38,442 nucleotides of DNA from Candidatus Cloacimonadota bacterium (GTDB lineage: Bacteria > Cloacimonadota > Cloacimonadia > Cloacimonadales > Cloacimonadaceae), in NCBI GenBank assembly GCA_028706475.1, contig JAQWBI010000018.1, positions 1 through 38,442 of the forward strand. The letters are read 5' to 3'. The notes beneath the pieces were generated by a model. That model saw only the letters and a program-made list of their open reading frames with translations. It did no database searches and was not told where the DNA came from. Shown here piece by piece: positions 21,657-37,151 of this stretch (positions are counted from its first letter, which is position 1; every line of letters begins with the position of its first letter). Made by a program: the position numbers and the translations under genes.

Positions 21657-23327
21657 CTACTCTGCCGTGATTTTGAAAAATGCTTTGCTTTCCGCCGGAT
21701 CCGCCACATAAGACGTTCCGCTGATACTTTTGAAATGAGTGTAATCCATACTTGGATCGTTAGTTTTGTATATGTTATATTTGCGTGCATAAGGGATGGG
21801 ATTCCAGCTCAGATGCGGAGCGCCGGTAATTGCGTCTTTCACGATCTGAACTTCGGGGGTTGGATAGCTATAATCTGCGTCACCGATCCAGAAATTGTTC
21901 AGCATATAATCGTTATCGTCGTTGTTTATCTGTGAACCGGCAAAAAAGGCGATGCGAATATGACCAGTATGTTCTGCCAGAGAAATAGAGATGGTCTCGC
22001 CGGCCATTGGGATATTGTTCAGCACATATTCTGAACCAGTGTTATTGTACTCCCTTACAATATCTGCCATTTCCCAGGTGAATCCATCTCCGATCAAGAT
22101 AGCAAACTGATCGTCTGTAGCGCTGTAATTTGGGGGAGTTCCTTCGGGAGTCTGACCATATCTTAGTATCGCAGCGTCTATCTTCATCACATAGTTTTCT
22201 GAGGGGATGTTGAACATCGGTGATACCAAATATCCGCTGACAGACCCCCAGATGTTTATCCTGGCGGCTTTATCGGTTCCGGAATAGTTTAGCCAGTCAT
22301 CGCTATCCCATTGGCTGCCGTTCAGAGTTCCAAACGTGATGGGATCGCTCAATGTACCAGCGTAGTGAGTCCAACCCACAGGTGGAAAATCCCCGTCGAA
22401 TGTTTCCAAGTGAGGGTATAGCACTATTGCCGGATCAGCTTCTGTGGTGAACGACCATACCGGGCAGTTGATAGCCGGAGCAATATCGTTTTGCGGTATC
22501 ACTCTCCAGTAGTACTGAGTATCATAGTTCAGTCTATCAGGCAGTGTGTATCTGGTTTCGCTCACACTCTGGGCGTTGATGATGTTTGAGGGAGGATTGT
22601 CTGTGCCAAACCAGAGCATATATCCAGTGGGCATTCCGCCATTGTGTTCCCATTTCAGCATGGTATCGATGGGGACGTCTATGGCCGCGTCTGCGGGTAT
22701 AATTGCTGTGGCAGGAGGTGGCGGGGCATCGGGAGTGCTCATTAGCCAGATATTAGGGCGATAATCCCGCTTGCGGGTTCCGCTGCTGGTAGAGAAAGAA
22801 GTACCGTTCTTGTACACAGCACTATAGAATGAAGTTTCGGTAGTGCGGAAACTTGGTGGGCCGGATACTTTTACTCCATCACGATCTTCCCACAGGATTT
22901 CCAGATGCCAACCATTTGCGGGATTAAAGGTATAGGGTGTTTGAAGAGTAATTTCCTGCCAGCCGGGGCCGTTCCAGGATACTGTCCCGTCATATACCAG
23001 AGTATGGTATGCGGGGTTTTGGTAATTACCATTTGAATATTGGTCATCGTAGTAAACGCCCATGTAAACCTTCTGGCTGTCGGTTATGTAGTTTGTCTTC
23101 TCATTATCCACGTAGAAGGCGATTCTTTCGATAGTCTGTTGTGTGGTGAATCCGGCAGCTTGCAATTCATCTGCTTTGTAGAAGAATTTGCTCCAACCGT
23201 AATTCGCATAACCATATAACGGCACTTTGTTTTGAGTGTCGTCATCAGTGCCGATTATATAATCTCCGGCACAGAGGAAGGACAGGCTTAAGGCAAAGCC
23301 CAGGATCAGTATAATTGTCTTTTGCAT
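21657..23327 (-). CDS. Secreted multidomain protein with Fn3-like regions
   Basis: The 556-residue product starts with a signal peptide (MQKTIILILGFALSLSFLCAG). Residues about 22-200 form a beta-rich domain (PLYGYANYGWSKFFYKADEL region). A proline hinge APPPPATA leads to a fibronectin type III-like domain (AAIDVPIDTMLKWEHNGG, YDTQYYWRVIPQND). Then comes a choice-of-anchor-J-like jelly roll (HLETFDGDFPPVGWTHYAG) and a last Fn3-like part ending AFFKITAE. It lacks the C-terminal sorting domain seen in its neighbour, so it may be periplasmic or exported by another route. It begins 9 bases after the 1086-residue gene and is probably the last gene of the same operon. Confidence 0.85.
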   Translation of the reverse strand: MQKTIILILGFALSLSFLCAGDYIIGTDDDTQNKVPLYGYANYGWSKFFYKADELQAAGFTTQQTIERIAFYVDNEKTNYITDSQKVYMGVYYDDQYSNGNYQNPAYHTLVYDGTVSWNGPGWQEITLQTPYTFNPANGWHLEILWEDRDGVKVSGPPSFRTTETSFYSAVYKNGTSFSTSSGTRKRDYRPNIWLMSTPDAPPPPATAIIPADAAIDVPIDTMLKWEHNGGMPTGYMLWFGTDNPPSNIINAQSVSETRYTLPDRLNYDTQYYWRVIPQNDIAPAINCPVWSFTTEADPAIVLYPHLETFDGDFPPVGWTHYAGTLSDPITFGTLNGSQWDSDDWLNYSGTDKAARINIWGSVSGYLVSPMFNIPSENYVMKIDAAILRYGQTPEGTPPNYSATDDQFAILIGDGFTWEMADIVREYNNTGSEYVLNNIPMAGETISISLAEHTGHIRIAFFAGSQINNDDNDYMLNNFWIGDADYSYPTPEVQIVKDAITGAPHLSWNPIPYARKYNIYKTNDPSMDYTHFKSISGTSYVADPAESKAFFKITAE

Positions 23328-23336
23328 GTTGTCCCC

Positions 23337-26300
23337 TTATTTGATCATAGTTAGTTTTCGGATCTGAGTAGTTTGATGACTGCTGAAACGGACGTAGTAC
23401 ACTCCACTTGCTACACCCTTTTTATTGTCATCTGTGCCATCCCAAACCACGGTGTGCATGCCTGCGTTCTTATTCTCGTTCATCAGTACTTTTACTTTCT
23501 GCCCCTTGATGTTATATATTTCTACGCGTACATCTCCGGGATCAGAAAGAGTGAATGCAATATTTGTAGTAGGATTAAAAGGATTTGGATACACATTGGT
23601 GATACCGGCGGATATCACCGGACTGTTGGCATCGCCAATAGCCGAAGTGCTGATATCCCACCAGTTCATCAGGTCTTGAATCCATTCCATGCGGTGATTG
23701 GGATTGCTGAGCTGGGAGAAGTCGAAGCTAAAATACAGGGTTCTAAAAGAGGGAGTTTCTACGGCAGTTGCGGCTATTCCGTGATAAAGATAGGCTTGGC
23801 CGCCGATAGGTCCGTCTTCAAAAGCATAAATGTATTCTGCGCCGATTTCGGGATAAGGAACTGAGTTATAATAGGGATCACCGGCTGCATCATTGGGGAA
23901 GATGCAATCTGGAGAATTCGCATAAACCGGGTATTCCATGTCCACGGTTCCCACAGGAGTACCAGGCAAAGCCAGAATGGTTCCGCTCACATAGGTATAA
24001 CTGTCTGGACCGCCCAGGCCATTTGTGCCTCCTCCAAAACCAGAAGCCACATAGGATGTGCGGAAATATCCACTCATCAAACGCCTGATGCTGCTGGAAT
24101 TCGGGTGGGCATGTTGGGAAGAAGCTAAGCCGTCTGAAGCAAACCAGAGATTGCGGGGATCCTGATCTGTGCCGCTATCCAGATAGCTGCTGAGCTGAGT
24201 GGCGAAGTAGTGCATTTTCTCATTTGCTGACCCTGTGTTGGCATAAGCTATAATTCCCTGGTATGAATCCGGTATCTCGTAGTTTGAATATTCTTCCCAA
24301 TTGTAGATATCGTAATCGATGTTCAATTCTGTAAGCAGGTTTTCATATATCGGCAGCTCGATGCGGTTATAATCCTGTGTGCCGCTGTAGGCTATCAGCA
24401 CCTTTGAATCAGCCGTAGGCAGGACTTTAAAGCTGTAGCATTGGCCGGGGGCTTCTACAGGCAGGGTGGAAGTATTTCCCACGCCATCCGTAGCTTCAAA
24501 GTAATAGGATACTGTGCTGCCCAGGGGGATATTCATGATGTTGAAATAGTATTCACTGCCAATCACAGTGTCTGCTTCTACACTTGTCCAGCCTTCGCCG
24601 GTATTGTAGTGCATTTCGGCATTGATAGGAGCAGTCATATCTATGATGGTGGCAATCAGTTCCTGATGTTGCATGAAGGTATTGCCTTTGGCTTTGTGAG
24701 TTATGATGGGGTCTTGATCATCCTCACCGGAGTAAAAGACGATGGCCAAGCCGTCGTGAAGCAAGTTACCAGCAGGTTCCACACCCATATAGGTGTTGTC
24801 TTGCACGATCTCTCGGAGGTATGGAAGACCGCTGTTGGCAGCTCGATTTTGGATGGCAACGGTGGAACTGGCTCCAAAGTCATGCGGAATGCTGGCACCT
24901 GTCTGTCCAGTGGCAACAGTGTGATACTGCATCTTGATTTCACCGTTCTCGTGCAAGATTACCTGGAATTTCAAGAGTTCTTCAGCTCCGCTACCAGCGC
25001 GGAATCTAAGGTTGTTCCATTGCACCACGGTATAGCGGTTGGGCGCAGTACCAAAAGTTTCAAAAAAGACGTTGCCCACACCTTCATCGGCTTCCAGATC
25101 ATCCCAATATACGGCAATCAACGCCGGCATCTGAACGTAACCTGGAATGGGATACATATAGTTGAACATGTTGCCGTCACTGTCCCATCCGTCATCTGGG
25201 TATTCAGTTTGCCAGTTGTTGGGTGCTAAAAGGATCTCACCATTGATATCGATGTAAGCGGTTGTGAAGTTCTCACCATAAAATGGGAAGCTGAAGCCCA
25301 GGGGTACAGCTTCACTGAAGTTATCATCTCCGGAAAAAGAGTTTACACCGAACATAATGGATGAAGCTCCGGTTTCGCTAATCTCAATCCAGTCGTAGTC
25401 TGGTCCCAAGGGATCATTGCTGTCCAGATAACGGTAACCAAAGGTGTCCGGACCTCCACTGGTGAAGCGGTAAACAATCGTAGTATAAGCTACAAAGACG
25501 TTGTTATCTGGGTTCGAGTCTTCAGTACCGATAGTAAACTCAAAGCGCAATTCTTCTTCATCGGCAGGGATAAAGCTGTTTGACATGCTTAGGATGGCGC
25601 TACCGCCGGGACTGAGCTCCATCATATGGCTTAGAGCATCGCTGTGCAGCAATTCATTGGCGGAGGAATAGACCTCCAAATCTACATCAATATAGTCGTT
25701 GAAGGCTGTCCATCCGCCATTGCTTACTTCTATTACCGGGATCATGGGGAGGTTCTGGTATTCTATGACACGAGGGGAAATAACCTCAGAGAAGTAAAGA
25801 TCAACCGCTGGATCTTCCAATACTATCACCTCGAGTGTATCTATGGCGATCAAACCGGTATAACCGTCGTTCAGAGTGAATACCAACGCTTCGTTGCCCA
25901 CAAAATCGTTTGAACTTAAGTGTACGTTCAAACCGGAGATTGTTACGTCTATATTGTCGCTGGGTTCAGAACTCAAGCTTACCATGCTGATGTCTGAGCA
26001 TGTTATGTAATCACTGAAATCCATTGTGAGGGAGTCACTGAGAAACATCGATACGGATTCCGGAAGATTCAACTCCGGATCTATGGCGATTTCCTGACCT
26101 ATCCTTACATCGTCCAAGAGGATACCATAGGTGCTGCATTCCCAGAAGAAACCAATGTAGATATTCATTCCAATATAGCTACTCAAGGATACTTCTGCGT
26201 ATTCATAGGAATTGCCCAGATCATTCAAATTCAGGAGCAGTGTGCTCATGGCACCAGGCTGGGCCAGAGTGGTGGATACATATACCTTCAGGTCCTCTGT

Positions 26301-26597
26301 TCCATACCAGGCGCGTGTGTAAAACTCGAGATTGTCGCCCGCATTAACGCTAATCTGGGGAGTAATCAGCCAGTCAGCGTTCTGGTTGGGCAGATAGTTG
26401 TCCACAAAAGCAGCGCGGCTGCCTGTGTGTGCGTTGGCGTGTTCAAAATTTCTCCATGTCAAACCGTCGCCGTCGTCAAACACGCTCCAGCCTTGAGGAA
26501 GAGTAGTAATCCCTTCGAAGCCTTCATCTATGTGCCATTGCGCCATCAGGATGGTGGAACACATTAGAATCAGGATAGTTCCTATAATAGCTTTCAT
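23337..26597 (-). CDS. Giant secreted protein with type IX-type sorting domain
   Basis: The 1086-residue protein has a signal peptide (MKAIIGTILILMCSTILMAQ) and an N-terminal choice-of-anchor-J-like domain (EGITTLPQGWSVFDDGDGL, DWLITPQISVNAGD). Middle regions are beta-rich; one resembles nidogen-like segments (PLGFSFPFYGENFTTAYID). A segment from about 730 (SKVLIAYSGTQDYNRIELP) looks like an alpha/beta domain. The C-terminus (about 1005-1086) begins YPNPFNPTTNIAFTL and ends KLTMIK with GVASGVYYVRF, the Por/type IX secretion (FlgD-like) sorting type. I see no catalytic motif. It is probably displayed on the surface or released, and is the second gene of the regulator-led operon. Confidence 0.88.
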   Translation of the reverse strand: MKAIIGTILILMCSTILMAQWHIDEGFEGITTLPQGWSVFDDGDGLTWRNFEHANAHTGSRAAFVDNYLPNQNADWLITPQISVNAGDNLEFYTRAWYGTEDLKVYVSTTLAQPGAMSTLLLNLNDLGNSYEYAEVSLSSYIGMNIYIGFFWECSTYGILLDDVRIGQEIAIDPELNLPESVSMFLSDSLTMDFSDYITCSDISMVSLSSEPSDNIDVTISGLNVHLSSNDFVGNEALVFTLNDGYTGLIAIDTLEVIVLEDPAVDLYFSEVISPRVIEYQNLPMIPVIEVSNGGWTAFNDYIDVDLEVYSSANELLHSDALSHMMELSPGGSAILSMSNSFIPADEEELRFEFTIGTEDSNPDNNVFVAYTTIVYRFTSGGPDTFGYRYLDSNDPLGPDYDWIEISETGASSIMFGVNSFSGDDNFSEAVPLGFSFPFYGENFTTAYIDINGEILLAPNNWQTEYPDDGWDSDGNMFNYMYPIPGYVQMPALIAVYWDDLEADEGVGNVFFETFGTAPNRYTVVQWNNLRFRAGSGAEELLKFQVILHENGEIKMQYHTVATGQTGASIPHDFGASSTVAIQNRAANSGLPYLREIVQDNTYMGVEPAGNLLHDGLAIVFYSGEDDQDPIITHKAKGNTFMQHQELIATIIDMTAPINAEMHYNTGEGWTSVEADTVIGSEYYFNIMNIPLGSTVSYYFEATDGVGNTSTLPVEAPGQCYSFKVLPTADSKVLIAYSGTQDYNRIELPIYENLLTELNIDYDIYNWEEYSNYEIPDSYQGIIAYANTGSANEKMHYFATQLSSYLDSGTDQDPRNLWFASDGLASSQHAHPNSSSIRRLMSGYFRTSYVASGFGGGTNGLGGPDSYTYVSGTILALPGTPVGTVDMEYPVYANSPDCIFPNDAAGDPYYNSVPYPEIGAEYIYAFEDGPIGGQAYLYHGIAATAVETPSFRTLYFSFDFSQLSNPNHRMEWIQDLMNWWDISTSAIGDANSPVISAGITNVYPNPFNPTTNIAFTLSDPGDVRVEIYNIKGQKVKVLMNENKNAGMHTVVWDGTDDNKKGVASGVYYVRFSSHQTTQIRKLTMIK

Positions 26598-26611: not shown

Positions 26612-27985
26612 TTAGTTGAAACTCAGTTGGGGTTGTTCAATTTGAACGAACCATTCATTTATGCCGGCCACATCTCCTCCAAGGGGACGATTGTCACCCC
26701 AATAAAAGGAGAGAAGCCCACGGGATTTCTGTTTGTAGGAGTTGTCGATATTGGCCAAAGATATGTTGGGATTGGTGCCAAGGCAGATCAGCGCTACTTT
26801 CCTGCCGTCAATTCCTCCGCTGATAATCGCTTTACCCAGCAGCTCTTCATTACTTGCAGCAGAATAGGTCTTGATCTCGTTGTTCTTGATCTGAAGCAGG
26901 GGTTTATCGATCTTCTCACCGAAGGCATAGGCTACATCACCACGGATCTCGCCGTTCATGGACATGGGTTGAGGTACCATCAACACCTCTCCTCCGGGAT
27001 AATTGATTACTGGACATTGATACTTACTGTTTGTGAAAGAACCGGTTTCCGCATATACTCCTTTCAACAAGAATCGCAGTGAAGAATCGTTGCCCTTCAC
27101 ATCCAGATATTGGCATCCAGAAAGCTTTTCACACATCTGGATGGTGTTCCTGCTCAAGCTCTCGTAATCTATGTCGAGCGCTTTCCAAAACTGCAGTTCG
27201 CTTTCGATCGCTTTATCCGATAGAGTGTCGTTCAATAAGCCCGGCATCATCGCTACTCTGATCTTCTTCTGTTGGATTATCTGAGTGCTTTTGCTGAAGT
27301 GAGATTGCCGTAGTTTTTGCTTTTCTGGGTTCGACAGGGGGATGTATCTGGTTTCGCCGTTTAGATTCAGATAGGCGTCGCTGCTGCGAAGTAAGCGGTT
27401 GAAATTATCGTAATCCGCATTGAAGGCAGGTAAACTGTAGTTTTCGTATTTATTGCGAATCATCTCTTCATCCTGATATAGCAGGGAACAGCGGATGCTC
27501 AATCTACCGGCTTCTGCCAGTATCTTCTCAACTAATGGGAAGTTGAACTTTCCCGTAACGATTAGTAGCTTTTGGCGCGGTTTGAGCTTCAGGGATTCCT
27601 GTAATATGCGGGATGCGATCAGTGAAAGGGGGAGCTTGTATTCACTCTCCAGGATGCTTTGAATTACACTGCGGCCGTTGATGGTGCCGTCACTCAAATG
27701 CTCGCCCAAAGCAAAGTCCAATATATAGTTCTTTGCCGTAGCCCTGTAATATACCTCTTTTCCGTTATCTACCATATCATCAACAATCTGGATAAATCCC
27801 TCATCCAATAGCTTGGTGAGATTGTAATGAACTTTCTGTTTACTGACCCCGAATGCTGTGGCCAATTGCTGACAGGTGGCAGCAGAAGCAATGAGAGCGC
27901 GGATCATACTGAATTTGAGGTCATTGGCCAACTCCATCACCTGTGAGTGTCGAGAAACAATTTGAATGTTTTTGATTAAAGTCAC
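26612..27985 (-). CDS. Winged-helix regulator fused to M29-like domain
   Basis: Residues about 17-85 form an ArsR-like winged helix (LIASAATCQQLATAFGVSKQ, HYNLTKLLDEGFIQIVDD). The rest (about 115-457) follows the layout of M29 aminopeptidase T: LKLKPRQKLLIVTG, PVINYPGGEVLMVPQP, NGEIRGDVAY, LGTNPNIS. Of the M29 metal-binding positions I can match only the Glu of GGEV. The places where M29 enzymes have later Glu, His and His-x-Asp ligands read VALICLGTN, LLSFYWG and INEWFVQ. So the domain is probably a dead enzyme used to sense a peptide or amino acid. The start is GTG with AGGAG upstream. It leads an operon with two secreted proteins, and a palindrome lies 16 bases before the start. Confidence 0.82.
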   Translation of the reverse strand: MTLIKNIQIVSRHSQVMELANDLKFSMIRALIASAATCQQLATAFGVSKQKVHYNLTKLLDEGFIQIVDDMVDNGKEVYYRATAKNYILDFALGEHLSDGTINGRSVIQSILESEYKLPLSLIASRILQESLKLKPRQKLLIVTGKFNFPLVEKILAEAGRLSIRCSLLYQDEEMIRNKYENYSLPAFNADYDNFNRLLRSSDAYLNLNGETRYIPLSNPEKQKLRQSHFSKSTQIIQQKKIRVAMMPGLLNDTLSDKAIESELQFWKALDIDYESLSRNTIQMCEKLSGCQYLDVKGNDSSLRFLLKGVYAETGSFTNSKYQCPVINYPGGEVLMVPQPMSMNGEIRGDVAYAFGEKIDKPLLQIKNNEIKTYSAASNEELLGKAIISGGIDGRKVALICLGTNPNISLANIDNSYKQKSRGLLSFYWGDNRPLGGDVAGINEWFVQIEQPQLSFN

Positions 27986-28020: not shown

Positions 28021-28181
28021 TGTTCATGGTACTGTAACTATACTGTATATGATGCTTTTAAGCATGCATATCCGAGATTACGAACTATGCTGAAGTTGTC
28101 AAGAACTTTTTGACTAAATTTACATGATGTCCGGTAAATGGTCTTCTGAACGTACCCGTAAAGCTGATCCATTGAATCCTG

Positions 28182-28884: not shown

Positions 28885-29682
28885 TCAGACTCTCAATGAA
28901 CTGATGGGAACTTCCCATTCCCGGGTATCGTGATCCAGCAAGAGGATGCCGTTTCTAGCTTTCAAGCGTTCATAAATATCTTGCTTGGCCTTGAAAGTAT
29001 CCTGACGACACACATCATAGGCTGAGGTTATTGCTAATGAAGTGTGAAACTGAGTGGCAATAATGTCACCGGCATAGATGTAGAAAGCATCCGGACTGTC
29101 GATCTGTATGTATTGACTTCCAACTGTATGACCACCGCATTTCACACAGCTGATTCCCGGATATATCTCCACTTCACTATCGATCAATTCGATGTTGCCG
29201 TGATCTTCCAGAAGCTTCATCTGATGTTCAAACTGATATGCAGCCTTATTCAATCCGTCGGGGGTCCTGGCAATGTTCCATTCATCCTTCTGGATCCAGT
29301 ATTTGGCTTTGGGGAAGGTAAGTGCGTCATGATTTCCAAATCCAGTTACAATTCCGCCGGCATGGTCGAAATGAAGATGTGTCATTATCACGTCTGTGAT
29401 ATCCTTGTCTGTATAGCCCAATTCAGCTAGCGATGCCAGCAGGGCAAATTCGCTGGGCTGATAAATCTCACGTTGTTTGTGATTCAACCTGTTACCCAAT
29501 CCGGTATCTATCAGGATTCGCTTTTGACCTTTAACTATCAGCAGCAGATTCAAGTCCATCTTTTGGCGTCGTCTATCGTCGGATTTTATTTTATCTTTCC
29601 ATATGGCATAGGGTAGTACACCCATCAGTGCACCACCATCAGACCAATAGTTTCCGGCGTAAACCTTGAAGACTTTATTCAC
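28885..29682 (-). CDS. Metallo-beta-lactamase-fold hydrolase
   Basis: The dimetal motif THLHFDHAGG supplies His102, His104, Asp106 and His107. Further ligands are visible in KCGGHTVGSQ, YAGDIIAT and LLDHDTREW. The 265-residue length and the DTGLGNRL segment resemble lactonase-like (AttM-type) members; the substrate cannot be told. The gene starts with GTG that overlaps the jag stop by one base (TAGTG), so it is coupled to the rpmH-jag cluster. In many bacteria mnmE occupies this place instead. Confidence 0.88.
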   Translation of the reverse strand: MNKVFKVYAGNYWSDGGALMGVLPYAIWKDKIKSDDRRRQKMDLNLLLIVKGQKRILIDTGLGNRLNHKQREIYQPSEFALLASLAELGYTDKDITDVIMTHLHFDHAGGIVTGFGNHDALTFPKAKYWIQKDEWNIARTPDGLNKAAYQFEHQMKLLEDHGNIELIDSEVEIYPGISCVKCGGHTVGSQYIQIDSPDAFYIYAGDIIATQFHTSLAITSAYDVCRQDTFKAKQDIYERLKARNGILLLDHDTREWEVPISSLRV

Positions 29683-30563
29683 TACTTATCGCCGTTTTCG
29701 GTTTTGGGACGAGGTTTGCGATTGCGGTAATCTGGCTTTCGAGGACTGCGCTTCTTCGGTACAGAAGGAATGGGATCTGTCTCAGCGCTAGTGCTTTTAT
29801 CGGGAGAGTTCTGATCGGTATCACGCTTCTTCTGTGGAGCTCTGTGGTGTCTAGGACTGGGTTTTGCTTTGTTCTCATCTGGCTTTGCTTCGCCTGATTC
29901 GTTTTTAGCTTTACCGTTTTGCTGCAGAACTTCACTTTCTTTCATTTTGGCAGAGAAGACCACTATGCGTTTGTTTTCGCCCTCACCAATGGTAAGGGTT
30001 TTCAGGCCTTTGTCTTTTTCGATATGGCGATGGATTATACGGCGTTCTCCGGGGCTCATGGGCTCCAGGGTTAGTGAATTGCCACTGGTCTTGATCTGAT
30101 TGATGCGAGGCAGAAACTTGCTGAGGAACTGGGATTCGCGGCGCTGGCGATAACCATCGGCATCCAGATAGATGCGATCAATCGTACGATCTCCCTCAAA
30201 AACTCTATTGATCAGGTATTGAATAGTCTCCAGCATAGTTCCGTTTTTCCCGATAATGAATCCGGTCTCCACGATGCCATTTACGGTCAGAAAGAGGGTT
30301 TTCCCTTCCTTTTTGGATGTGATGTCTGAGAAGCTAATTCCCATTTTGCATAGTAAAGATTCAGTAAAGAGTCGTATTCTATCCTCATTCTCGGGTAGTT
30401 GAAAGCGAACCAACGCTGATTTGTTTGCAAACAGGCCAAAGAATCCCTTGCTTGGTTTTTTTAGAATTTCGTATTTTAGCTCGTGATCTTTTATATTGTG
30501 CTCACGGCGAAAAGTGCGGATGATCTCTTCAACGGAGACACCGCTTTTATCGATTGTGGTCAT
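29682..30563 (-). CDS. jag: Jag/KhpB-type RNA-binding protein
   Basis: Domain order is Jag_N (residues about 5-55, with KPSKGFFGLFANKSALVRF), KH (about 70-140, VETGFIIGKNGTMLETIQYL) and R3H (about 155-210, MSPGERRIIHRHIEKD). A long, highly charged, low-complexity tail of about 75 residues follows (EAKPDENKAKPSPRHHRAPQ and more), probably disordered and RNA-binding. KhpB proteins form RNA-binding complexes with KhpA and affect cell elongation. It lies 4 bases after yidC, the usual order. Confidence 0.93.
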   Translation of the reverse strand: MTTIDKSGVSVEEIIRTFRREHNIKDHELKYEILKKPSKGFFGLFANKSALVRFQLPENEDRIRLFTESLLCKMGISFSDITSKKEGKTLFLTVNGIVETGFIIGKNGTMLETIQYLINRVFEGDRTIDRIYLDADGYRQRRESQFLSKFLPRINQIKTSGNSLTLEPMSPGERRIIHRHIEKDKGLKTLTIGEGENKRIVVFSAKMKESEVLQQNGKAKNESGEAKPDENKAKPSPRHHRAPQKKRDTDQNSPDKSTSAETDPIPSVPKKRSPRKPDYRNRKPRPKTENGDK

Positions 30564-30567
30564 TAAA

Positions 30568-32199
30568 CTATTCCTTATTTTTGTTGAGTTTTAGCAGATA
30601 ATACTGCTGAATAACCGAGAAGATATTGAACACTGTCCAGTACAGCACCAATCCGGCAGGCATACTACGGAAGATGAAGAACATCATGATCGGCATAATC
30701 CACGTCATCATTTTTTGTGATGATTGCGCTGCCTTTTGCTTGTCGTCCATTTCTTCAGGGTTCCCCTTGGGGGGTTTCATCATCAAGGATTGGATTACCA
30801 TAAAGACACCCATGATGATGGGAAGTATCAGATAAGGATCCGGCTCGGAGAGATCCTTTAACCATAGGACAAAACCTGCATTACGCATATCGATTGAATA
30901 GCGCAATACGTTGTAAAGCGATATAAAGATAGGCATTTGCAGAAGTAGTGGCAGACATCCGGACAGGGGATTTGCTCCTGCTTCTTTGTACAACTTGCTT
31001 ATCTCCAATTGTAAAGTTTTTGGGTCATCCTTGTATTTCTTTTGCAGATACTGCATCTGTGGCTGAATCTTCTGCATCTTCAGAGAAGCCTGCATACTCT
31101 TGTGGGTAAGAGGGTGTAAAAGCACCTTAATGATCAGGGCAAAGATAATGATCACCACACCATAATTCTTGATGTAGGTATGAAGCCAACTCAGGAACCA
31201 AGCAAAGATGTTTGCCAACCAGCGCAGCCAATTGGCTCCGCGTTCCGCAATGTTTTCCATCTGTCTGCCGTATGTTTTCAGGATATTGGCATCTGCAGGA
31301 CCGGCATAGAGTACAAAGCTCTGTTGCCAGTTTGCCTTGGCATCTTTGCTGAAGCTATCGATGGCAAAACCCGGATTCCCGGTATCTTCGTTTAGGCTAG
31401 TGGAAAAGCTTTTGCATAGCGGAGGTTCATTCTCTTTGATAGCGAGAGTGAAATACTTGCTGCGAACTGCTGCCCAGGCAAAACTGCTGTAACTGCCCTG
31501 CGGCGGATTTTTGCGTAATTTGGAGAGCGGTACTTTTAGGATTTCGTTGTCAGCATACAGATAGAAGCGGTAATCCTGAGCCTTTGTTTTTGTGTTGTTC
31601 TCACTATCCGCGATGCCGGCAGACATATCCAGCCTGATACCGTTCACACTGCCGAATCCGTCGATACTAAAGTCTGTTTTTATGCCGTATTGATCGTCCA
31701 ACCGATAGGTTCTGCGAATTGTAGCTCCATTCTGACTATTCAGAGTGAAGGTGACGGCCTTTTCAGAGGGATCCACAGCATAGCTAAAGCTATACTTGCT
31801 AAGATCAATGTTCTCTCCACTGCTGTACAAAATGCCGTTCAAAATCTGAGTGTCTTCGGGAATTAAATTCACCAATTTATCGGAGCCAAACTCAAAGTGC
31901 TTGAGTTCTATGGAACTAATTACTGCACCGCGATTACTGAACTTCACAATGAAATTCTCGTTTTCCAAGGTGATGATCTGGTTTTCAGTGTTCTGGGCGA
32001 ACAAACTGTCCGCATTCACAGCTGGTAAAACGGTATCCGACAGGCTGTCAGGACTGGCGTTTACTGGACTTTCCGGAACCACTTCCTCGTTTTGGACAGC
32101 TAACTTGGCGTTGTCGCGTTGCGGTTTCCACACAAAATGATCAAAAACCAAGTATAGAACCAACATCATCAGAAGAGCAGTAATAGTTCGTTTATCCAA
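30568..32199 (-). CDS. yidC: Membrane protein insertase YidC
   Basis: YidC inserts and folds proteins in the inner membrane, alone or with SecYEG. The 543-residue length is that of the Gram-negative type: N-terminal span (ITALLMMLVLYLVFDHFVW), a large periplasmic beta domain (about 60-340), then the conserved core from about 355 (NYGVVIIIFALIIKVLLHPL, SLKMQKIQPQMQYLQKKYKD, KEAGANPLSGCLPLLLQMPI and SMPAGLVLYWTVFNIFSVIQ). It sits between yidD and jag, the standard neighbours. Confidence 0.97.
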   Translation of the reverse strand: MDKRTITALLMMLVLYLVFDHFVWKPQRDNAKLAVQNEEVVPESPVNASPDSLSDTVLPAVNADSLFAQNTENQIITLENENFIVKFSNRGAVISSIELKHFEFGSDKLVNLIPEDTQILNGILYSSGENIDLSKYSFSYAVDPSEKAVTFTLNSQNGATIRRTYRLDDQYGIKTDFSIDGFGSVNGIRLDMSAGIADSENNTKTKAQDYRFYLYADNEILKVPLSKLRKNPPQGSYSSFAWAAVRSKYFTLAIKENEPPLCKSFSTSLNEDTGNPGFAIDSFSKDAKANWQQSFVLYAGPADANILKTYGRQMENIAERGANWLRWLANIFAWFLSWLHTYIKNYGVVIIIFALIIKVLLHPLTHKSMQASLKMQKIQPQMQYLQKKYKDDPKTLQLEISKLYKEAGANPLSGCLPLLLQMPIFISLYNVLRYSIDMRNAGFVLWLKDLSEPDPYLILPIIMGVFMVIQSLMMKPPKGNPEEMDDKQKAAQSSQKMMTWIMPIMMFFIFRSMPAGLVLYWTVFNIFSVIQQYYLLKLNKNKE

Positions 32200-35018: not shown

Positions 35019-37151
35019 TTACAGGAAGCGCTTTACAACTTCCACTACTTCAGGCAGATCCATGCCGATGTTTTTCAGATGTTCCAAAGTGGGCACACCT
35101 TCCTTGGTCCAGCCTTTACGTTCATACACAGCATCTACGAGTTGTTGATATTGATCTTCGCGATATTGGCGGGTGATTTCCATCTTCTCAGCAGTAGATT
35201 TGCCTGTGGGATCCACGCCAATCTTGTTTTTCAGCAAGTTGTCGTAGCGTTCAATGCGGGAAAGGTATTCTTCCTCGGTAACTGGGCCTACGGCGCGATA
35301 GGGGGGAATATCATCCTGGCGGCGACCTCCGCCCATCCTCATGCAAAAGACTTTCTGGAAGTTGTAAACCCGTTCGCTTTGACGTATCAGCTCGTGTTTA
35401 TCCATCGGTTTTCCCGTGATTGCTTTGTAGATATCCACATAGTTTTGAACGTGTTCAGGTACCTTTGCCGGTTCGTCGGTTTGAGCGTTATCAGCAGGTT
35501 CGATGTCGTTCCAGGGAAGCTTGCACAATCCCTGCAAGCCAAACCAGGTACGGAACATGGGGAAATAGTGCAGGGCTTCGGCTTTATCTTTGAAAGTGGG
35601 AATATGGTTATTCACCATATCCATGAAGATCAGCCAGGCTTCATCGTGTTGCGGGCCTTTCAGAGCCAAGGTATATCCGCCTTGCTGCGCCAAAGATTCT
35701 TTACTCATGTATTGAGAATATTCCAGTCCCTTGGCTTCCATACCGATGTCTTGCAAGAATTTGGGATCGGCGCCATACTTTTCGGCAAAGATCTTCTTCA
35801 TCCTGCGTACACCCTGACCCACGATCATACCAAAACCTTCACCCCGAGCCATCTGATGCAAGAGCTCCAATGCATCGTCGGCATTTCCCCAAGAGAGATC
35901 CAAGCCCCCGGTGCGTTCTTTGTTCAAGATGCCGTTTTCGTAGCATTCCATTGCAAATGCCACACTGGTGCCAAAAGAAATGGTATCCACACCGTAAGTA
36001 TCGCAATAGAAATTGATTTCCACCACATCTTTAGGATCCCACACACAGATGTTTGAGCCGCAACCGCCGGCAGTTTCGTATTCCGGGCCATCAACCGTAA
36101 CCGACTGTCCCTTGTAAGGACCAGTGCGGGGTTTAAAATTGTCTACGGCTTTGCAGCAGGATAGTGAGCAACCATACCAACAGCCGTCTGCCATACCTTG
36201 GGTAAAGAGCTTGGTAAACTCTCGAGAATGAAGACCCTCGGCTTCAGGCATTTGGCCATACTTGAAGTTCTTGATGGGCAAAAGGTCATAATCGTTCATG
36301 ATTTCCATCAGGTGAGCGGTACCAACCTGATGCATGCGGCACTGGGTAGCGTCTCCGGCTTCAATCTCTTTGTGCAGCTTCAGACCTGTCTTGCGTAGAG
36401 TGGGTAGGTCAGCCGGATTGTTGGTATCTACTTTTAGTCCGGAATACTTCACCACCAAAGCCTTGATCTTTTTGTGTCTGAAAGCAGTTCCTGTGCCACC
36501 ACGTCCGGCTTGTTTGAGACGGGCAACTTTGCGGCGCTTGTCCCAGAACGAGAAGTTCAAACAGGTTATGAGTACATTGTCCGCTGCACGTCCGGAAGAT
36601 ACCACGGATATAGTCTGCAACCTGTCTTCGCCATCGGCAAATTCCTTATGCAGAGATTCCGCTAGCAAGTGGCTGTTGATCTCTTCGTCGGGAGCGGTCA
36701 AGATCTTCACGACGCCTTTGTCGCCATCAATAAATACAATAACTTCTTCATCGGCAATGCCTTGAAGTTCCAGGGCATCGAAGCCGGCAAACTTACAATA
36801 GGGGCCAAAGTGTCCACCCACATTGCAATCCACGGGAATACCCGTTAATGGTGAGATAGTGGTAACAATGGACTTTCCGCTGCCGGGATACGAGGTATTG
36901 CCACACAAGGGGCCAAAAGCGATGCAAACTTCGTTTTCGGGATCATCCCATTTGGTGGTGTCTTTCACGCCATGCCACATCAGATAAAGGTCAAAACCCT
37001 TGCCTCCCACGAACTTATCTATCATCATGTCTGAAACAGGTTTTTCTTTGATCTCTCCGGTGCCTACGTTTACATAAAGCGTACGGCGATTGTATCCTTT
37101 ATCGATGGGTTTCAATGTGTAACTGTATTCAGCTAATACTCTGCGATTCAT
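35019..37151 (-). CDS. Aldehyde:ferredoxin oxidoreductase family enzyme
   Basis: This tungstopterin or molybdopterin enzyme oxidises aldehydes to acids with ferredoxin, or the reverse. The N-terminal AFOR domain shows RRTLYVNVGTGEI, DKFVGGKGFDLYLMW, GPLCGNTSYPGSGK and VGGHFGPYCKFAGFDALELQ. The iron-sulfur cysteines are probably those of CWYGCSLSCC plus the one in GLQGLCKLPW. EYETAGGCGSN and LKGPQHDEAW are further family blocks. At 710 residues it is about 100 longer than archaeal AOR. It follows a four-cluster ferredoxin gene by 9 bases, its likely electron partner. In an amino-acid fermenter it could remove aldehydes or recycle reductant. The true substrate is unknown. Confidence 0.93.
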   Translation of the reverse strand: MNRRVLAEYSYTLKPIDKGYNRRTLYVNVGTGEIKEKPVSDMMIDKFVGGKGFDLYLMWHGVKDTTKWDDPENEVCIAFGPLCGNTSYPGSGKSIVTTISPLTGIPVDCNVGGHFGPYCKFAGFDALELQGIADEEVIVFIDGDKGVVKILTAPDEEINSHLLAESLHKEFADGEDRLQTISVVSSGRAADNVLITCLNFSFWDKRRKVARLKQAGRGGTGTAFRHKKIKALVVKYSGLKVDTNNPADLPTLRKTGLKLHKEIEAGDATQCRMHQVGTAHLMEIMNDYDLLPIKNFKYGQMPEAEGLHSREFTKLFTQGMADGCWYGCSLSCCKAVDNFKPRTGPYKGQSVTVDGPEYETAGGCGSNICVWDPKDVVEINFYCDTYGVDTISFGTSVAFAMECYENGILNKERTGGLDLSWGNADDALELLHQMARGEGFGMIVGQGVRRMKKIFAEKYGADPKFLQDIGMEAKGLEYSQYMSKESLAQQGGYTLALKGPQHDEAWLIFMDMVNNHIPTFKDKAEALHYFPMFRTWFGLQGLCKLPWNDIEPADNAQTDEPAKVPEHVQNYVDIYKAITGKPMDKHELIRQSERVYNFQKVFCMRMGGGRRQDDIPPYRAVGPVTEEEYLSRIERYDNLLKNKIGVDPTGKSTAEKMEITRQYREDQYQQLVDAVYERKGWTKEGVPTLEHLKNIGMDLPEVVEVVKRFL

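Follow-up and report, generated by a model that had tools for sequence, protein, structure and literature searches.

An M29-fold domain with an incomplete metal site joined to a winged helix: a putative autorepressor of a secreted-protein operon in Cloacimonadota

Analysis of a 38,442-nucleotide stretch of Cloacimonadota DNA (the window) identified a protein that joins an ArsR-like winged helix to an M29 aminopeptidase fold in which four of the five metal-ligand columns are lost. The gene of this protein, hereafter the regulator, leads a three-gene operon that continues with P0002 (cargo 1) and P0003 (cargo 2), all on the minus strand. Judged from sequence comparison, the regulator is probably a one-component autorepressor of the regulator-P0002-P0003 operon, and it may use the former M29 cleft as its sensor. 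The features of the locus are as follows.

26612..27985, minus strand: the regulator, 457 aa, with a GTG start at 27985 preceded by AGGAG.
27716..27985, minus strand: ArsR-like winged helix-turn-helix, aa 1-90, assigned from Pfam HTH_20 at aa 19-65, the structural model and Foldseek.
aa 91-117 of the regulator: linker between the winged helix and the M29-fold domain.
26612..27634, minus strand: domain with the M29 fold and an incomplete metal site, aa ~118-457, assigned from Pfam, alignment and Foldseek.
23337..26597, minus strand: cargo 1 (P0002), 1086 aa, 14 bp after the regulator.
21657..23327, minus strand: cargo 2 (P0003), 556 aa, secreted-type, 9 bp after cargo 1.
28096..28116, minus strand: candidate operator TAGTCAAAAAGTTCTTGACAA, a 21-bp palindrome with a 17-bp core at 28098-28114.

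The open reading frame at 26612-27985 had been pointed out in a preliminary description of this DNA. The frame is real and is kept across dozens of genomes, and its strand is minus, not plus. Both domains proposed in that description were recovered by a family search with the full protein. The winged helix scores above the Pfam cut-off as HTH_20 (PF12840, 31.8 bits against 27), and the C-terminal domain does so as Peptidase_M29 (PF02073, 33.3 bits against 27); no NCBIfam family exceeded its cut-off. The closest solved proteins by sequence are AmpS (1zjc, E=6.6e-5) and the archaeal ArsR homologue PH1932 (1uly). An AlphaFold model computed with 45 homologues (mean pLDDT 86.0, pTM 0.71) retains the M29 fold, and the best Foldseek matches of this part, which span about 350-400 columns, are AmpT (2ayi, E 7.7e-19), PepS (4icr), NicX (7cn3), AmpS (1zjc), CgnE (6zsu), and CgnB. 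For the winged-helix part, the matches are the ArsR-type 1uly, SmtB, CzrA, and HlyU-type repressors. The Pfam, sequence, and structure matches together show that the two-domain reading is correct. The conserved metal site of ArsR/SmtB metalloregulators is absent from the winged helix, the one Cys at the place of that site (C38) being Gly in many relatives from family f10, and the regulator scores 22.1 bits against the metalloregulator profile NF033788, below the NCBIfam cut-off of 55.

Regulator matches are present in 66 of the 125 genomes of the phylum Cloacimonadota. A close clade (clade 1, 43-77% identity) covers families f1 and f10 and also occurs in two f13 genomes, and a divergent clade 2 (22-28% identity) is found in f13 only. 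The domain pair, for which a search had been suggested, extends beyond the phylum as well: a GTDB-wide scan found it in Eisenbacteria-type and Effluviviaceae genomes (L120, L122, L123, L125-L127, L131, and L132). The same scan returned one stand-alone M29 protein with intact ligands, from a Thermoplasmatota archaeon (L133), and no relative of the regulator was found on viral contigs. Each of the three groups with a helix-turn-helix is fully supported in the M29 tree, where branches are long. We considered a single origin of the fusion and do not claim it, because the tree does not resolve how the three groups relate to one another and to stand-alone M29 proteins.

The five metal-ligand columns (E, E, H, H, and D; here E1, E2, H1, H2, and D) were read from a MAFFT alignment that included five M29 proteins with all five ligands (L064, L069, L133, L134, and L137). 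The ligands of AmpS are E253, E319, H348, H381, and D383, with a weak Y355, and the conserved catalytic residues of M29 are EEHYHD (PMC7023490). The Tyr column is uninformative, as it varies even in the true M29 rows used. In the window regulator, E1 is kept as E333, and the other four positions are occupied by L399 (E2), S426 (H1), E444 (H2), and F446 (D). It had been proposed that the Glu of GGEV is the only ligand retained and that most ligand positions are replaced, and the column read-out agrees. Neither outcome that would have contradicted the proposal, a full set of ligands or a C-terminal domain unlike M29, was seen. Among the 38 sequences of clade 1, window protein included, the E1 column holds 36 E and 2 D; E2 holds 33 L, 2 T, and one each of M, S, and F; H1 holds 21 S and 17 T; H2 holds 37 E and 1 N; and the D column holds 18 F, 12 Q, 3 Y, 2 S, 2 I, and 1 H. 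The second His is thus replaced by a conserved Glu, which leaves two acids (E333 and E444) in the former site. All five ligands are gone in clade 2 (M/L, S, S/T, I/V, and Q, in the same order) and in the Eisenbacteria-type relatives (K, G, T, S, and G). Given these losses, the domain is not expected to act as an M29 peptidase. The genomes also encode M29 proteins that keep the ligands. One example is a 677-aa protein (G000:C1:187686-189719; L070:3687-5720) with its M29 domain at the C-terminus and a further N-terminal half; most genomes of the phylum have homologues of it, ~680-715 aa long.

P0002 begins with a signal-peptide-like N-terminus, followed by a region that resembles the cleaved-adhesin domains K3 and K1 of Lys-gingipain, and the remainder is a string of beta domains that ends in a T9SS sorting tail (Por_Secre_tail, 36.2 bits against a cut-off of 27; TIGR04183, 41.3 against 23). 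A catalytic domain was sought in this protein and none was found. P0003 matched no Pfam or NCBIfam family. The genome encodes T9SS machinery (SprA_N, E 9.8e-18) and has 62 Por_Secre_tail matches, so a T9SS-type neighbour is not rare in itself; the functional link between the regulator and P0002 is drawn from the constancy of the gene pair, not from the tail alone. A P0002 homologue occurs in 50 of the 125 genomes, 47 of which also carry the regulator, and the two genes are adjacent on the same strand in all 47 (regulator first in 46, reversed in G048). P0003 directly follows P0002 in most f1 genomes. In G001, the operon copy of P0003 (G001:C1:71638-73298) is broken by two in-frame stops, and a paralogue elsewhere has the candidate operator. 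Further genes of the window, at 35019-37151 and 28885-32199, are ordinary and include an aldehyde ferredoxin oxidoreductase, YidC, Jag/KhpB, and a lactonase-like protein of the metallo-beta-lactamase fold.

The 21-bp palindrome is common to about 29 close relatives, and the columns outside it carry almost no information. The site alignment has 31 rows, two of which (L110 and L112) are spurious: their best-match sites have 4 mismatches and lie 198-259 bp away, and they represent the same genes as L039 and L036, where a PWM scan placed better sites nearer the ATG. On average, 7.0 of 10 pairs are symmetric about its centre, compared with 2.0-4.2 about other centres. Pattern searches of the 2.06-Mb genome found a single copy when as many as 3 mismatches of 20 were allowed, and a relaxed symmetric pattern likewise gave one site. 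The end of the core lies 112 bp before the regulator start codon. The right half of TAGTCAAAAAGTTCTTGACAA holds a -35-like TTGACA (28097-28102), which is followed after 16 bp by a weakly conserved -10-like TAnnnT; a standard promoter scan returned no sigma-70-type promoter at the operator site. In f10, another family of the order, the palindrome reads TGGTC(N11)GACCA and sits 18-24 bp ahead of the ATG. G108 has similar palindromes upstream of its operon, whose first gene is a T9SS gene, and no recognisable site was found in G048, where the cargo precedes the regulator. Several f10 genomes have a second near-perfect palindrome, TTGTCCAAAATATTTGGACTA, within the start of the regulator (L041:4428, L037:5403, and L046:1635). 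We did not retain it as a further operator; it lies inside the coding region and probably mirrors the protein sequence, perhaps just as the code for the conserved IFGLSKQ motif.

A scan with GTCAAAAANNTCTTGAC over 50 family genomes found 25 exact sites, mostly before the regulator, and a control pattern gave 1 site. Extra exact sites in G001, G003, G004, and G009, of which G001, G004, and G009 are related genomes, precede P0003 paralogues at other loci, so that the regulator's own site predicts another target within this cargo family. The extra site in G026 shows no clear relation. Three genomes, all of genus g7, carry P0002 without the regulator (G018, G026, and G027). Remnants of both regulator ends and a decaying site, GTAAAAAAGTTCTTGGC, are seen in G018. 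In the sites of G026 (CGAAAAATTCCCTTGAC) and G027 (GAAAATAATCCTTGACAA), the TTGACA half is retained but the GTCAA half has disappeared, as expected of a promoter-overlapping operator once its repressor is gone. Taken with the operon, the palindrome, and its extra copies, this half-site loss points to an autorepressor, with three genomes of one genus being few. The one-component regulator role proposed in the preliminary description gains support from the conserved palindrome, from its decay or half loss where the gene is lost, and from the conserved operon.

The gene context of the distant groups also involves secreted proteins. The clade 2 regulator stands between genes for secreted proteins on the same strand. 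A T9SS-type tail is found on the upstream gene or its neighbour wherever the upstream gene is on the contig, and the downstream gene encodes a large secreted protein in most loci, with Pfam C25 (gingipain-type) in L048, L049, L054, L062, and L063. An S8 subtilase is near the regulator in L050, and more large secreted proteins lie upstream of it in several genomes. A dead peptidase beside secreted proteases would fit peptide sensing. In the Eisenbacteria-type genomes, the regulator is followed by two ~940-aa proteins with MAM and FlgD_ig tails, enolase lies divergent upstream, and aa 690-1086 of P0002 share homology with these cargos (E about 1e-23). A palindromic operator was sought in both groups and none was found. 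In clade 2 the search covered mainly the gap before the regulators, where there is a GC-rich stem-loop that looks more like a hairpin between cistrons. The Eisenbacteria-type group shares a promoter-like stretch that is conserved but not clearly symmetric. The repressor model is thus tested for the close clade only. Two further observations concern these loci: clusters of large secreted C25-type (gingipain-like) protease genes surround the f13 clade 2 regulator in L198-L205 and L048-L063, and the promoter-like stretch ahead of the regulator in L120-L132, which faces away from enolase, reads TTGACG...TAAAATGACCGCGCTGGAAAATTAGACCGG.

Collectively, the data suggest the following mechanism. A regulator dimer would bind the palindrome, which overlaps the -35-like hexamer or, in f10, lies just before the start codon, and the bound protein would block transcription of the regulator, cargo 1, and cargo 2. 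We regard dimer binding with autorepression as quite probable, and these two positions of the site favour repression. A small ligand would then enter the former active-site cleft and cause release of the DNA, so that the surface proteins would be made when their signal is present. An effector bound in this cleft appears fairly likely; a short peptide or an amino acid would be the best candidate, an identity that we rate at slightly under an even chance. We infer the effector from the conserved former active-site segments, from E333 and E444, and from the precedent of CgnB and CgnE. It may be speculated that E333 and E444 could hold its free amino terminus.

The alternative that survives best, though unlikely, is that the M29 domain is a dimerisation scaffold without a ligand, DNA binding being set by protein level, another protein, or a metal. 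ArsR-type repressors work as dimers. The M29 enzymes are dimers too, the dimer interface of CgnB/CgnE is extensive (PMC10070186), and the replaced metal ligands of the regulator would suit a scaffold. However, a scaffold has no need to keep the former active-site segments, yet their conservation averages 3.40, compared with a domain mean of 2.97 (permutation p 0.008), which is weak evidence because the segments were picked after the alignment was seen; P330, G331, G332, W429, G430, and E444 vary little or not at all among the 38 sequences. Somewhat less likely still is a sensor for a non-peptide small molecule, for example an aromatic or N-heterocyclic one. NicX, which binds dihydroxypyridine, is among the closest folds (7cn3, 7cup) and shows that the fold can bind small molecules other than peptides. 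But NicX uses a metal in this shared fold, the corresponding His and Asp columns of the M29 alignment are replaced in the regulator, and the neighbouring genes encode secreted surface proteins (proteases in clade 2) rather than aromatic catabolism. A role as activator of the operon, to which the upstream site and the ability of winged-helix proteins to activate would lend themselves, is improbable, as the cargo and the TTGACA element persist where the regulator is lost, and overlap with a -35-like hexamer or a place 18-24 bp before the ATG are poor positions for activation. Continued enzymatic activity, with a site rebuilt on E333 and E444, is very improbable, however well these columns are kept in clade 1 (36 and 37 of 38), given that the residues of true M29 are replaced at E2, H1, H2, and D and that clade 2 and the Eisenbacteria-type relatives lack E1 and a Glu at H2.

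If the regulator is an autorepressor with a ligand-binding former cleft, it provides an autorepressor and operator open to testing in a phylum where few regulators have been characterised, and the regulator-loss genomes let the operator claim be checked from sequence alone. More tentatively, peptide-sensing one-component regulators may exist in at least two phyla with type-IX-like secreted proteins, the ex-aminopeptidase reporting products of extracellular proteolysis and controlling adhesins and gingipain-type proteases. This offers a lead on how T9SS bacteria might tie the expression of surface proteins and secreted proteases to peptides.

Enzyme-derived sensor domains in one-component regulators are already known, and the M29 peptidase fold as a sensor would be the new element. 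Searches of the open-access literature for regulator-peptidase fusions gave nothing relevant and no description of M29 joined to a DNA-binding domain, which does not prove absence. PepA of E. coli is an M17 aminopeptidase that also regulates carAB. Like the regulator, it places an aminopeptidase fold in transcription control, but PepA is catalytically competent and has no separate winged helix. The ArsR/SmtB-type repressors (SmtB, CzrA, HlyU, and PH1932, 1uly) share the DNA-binding fold and a palindrome at a promoter-like element, whereas the regulator lacks their conserved metal or thiol site and has a large additional C-terminal putative sensor domain. NicX, a 2,5-dihydroxypyridine dioxygenase, has the fold of the regulator domain with another function, and it is a metal enzyme, unlike the regulator, which lacks the matching ligand columns. 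With the M29 aminopeptidases (AmpT 2ayi, PepS 4icr, AmpS 1zjc; PF02073), the C-terminal domain shares both fold and sequence profile; it differs in its lost ligand columns and the added N-terminal DNA-binding domain and, in the close clade, in the absence of the last C-terminal beta hairpin. CgnB and CgnE of crocagin synthesis derive from M29 and bind peptides. Neither displayed aminopeptidase activity, and the metal is lost from CgnE (PMC10070186). They (6zsv, 6zsu) are M29-derived like the regulator domain, with a structural match at only 10-11% identity, but they lack a DNA-binding domain and work in peptide natural-product synthesis.
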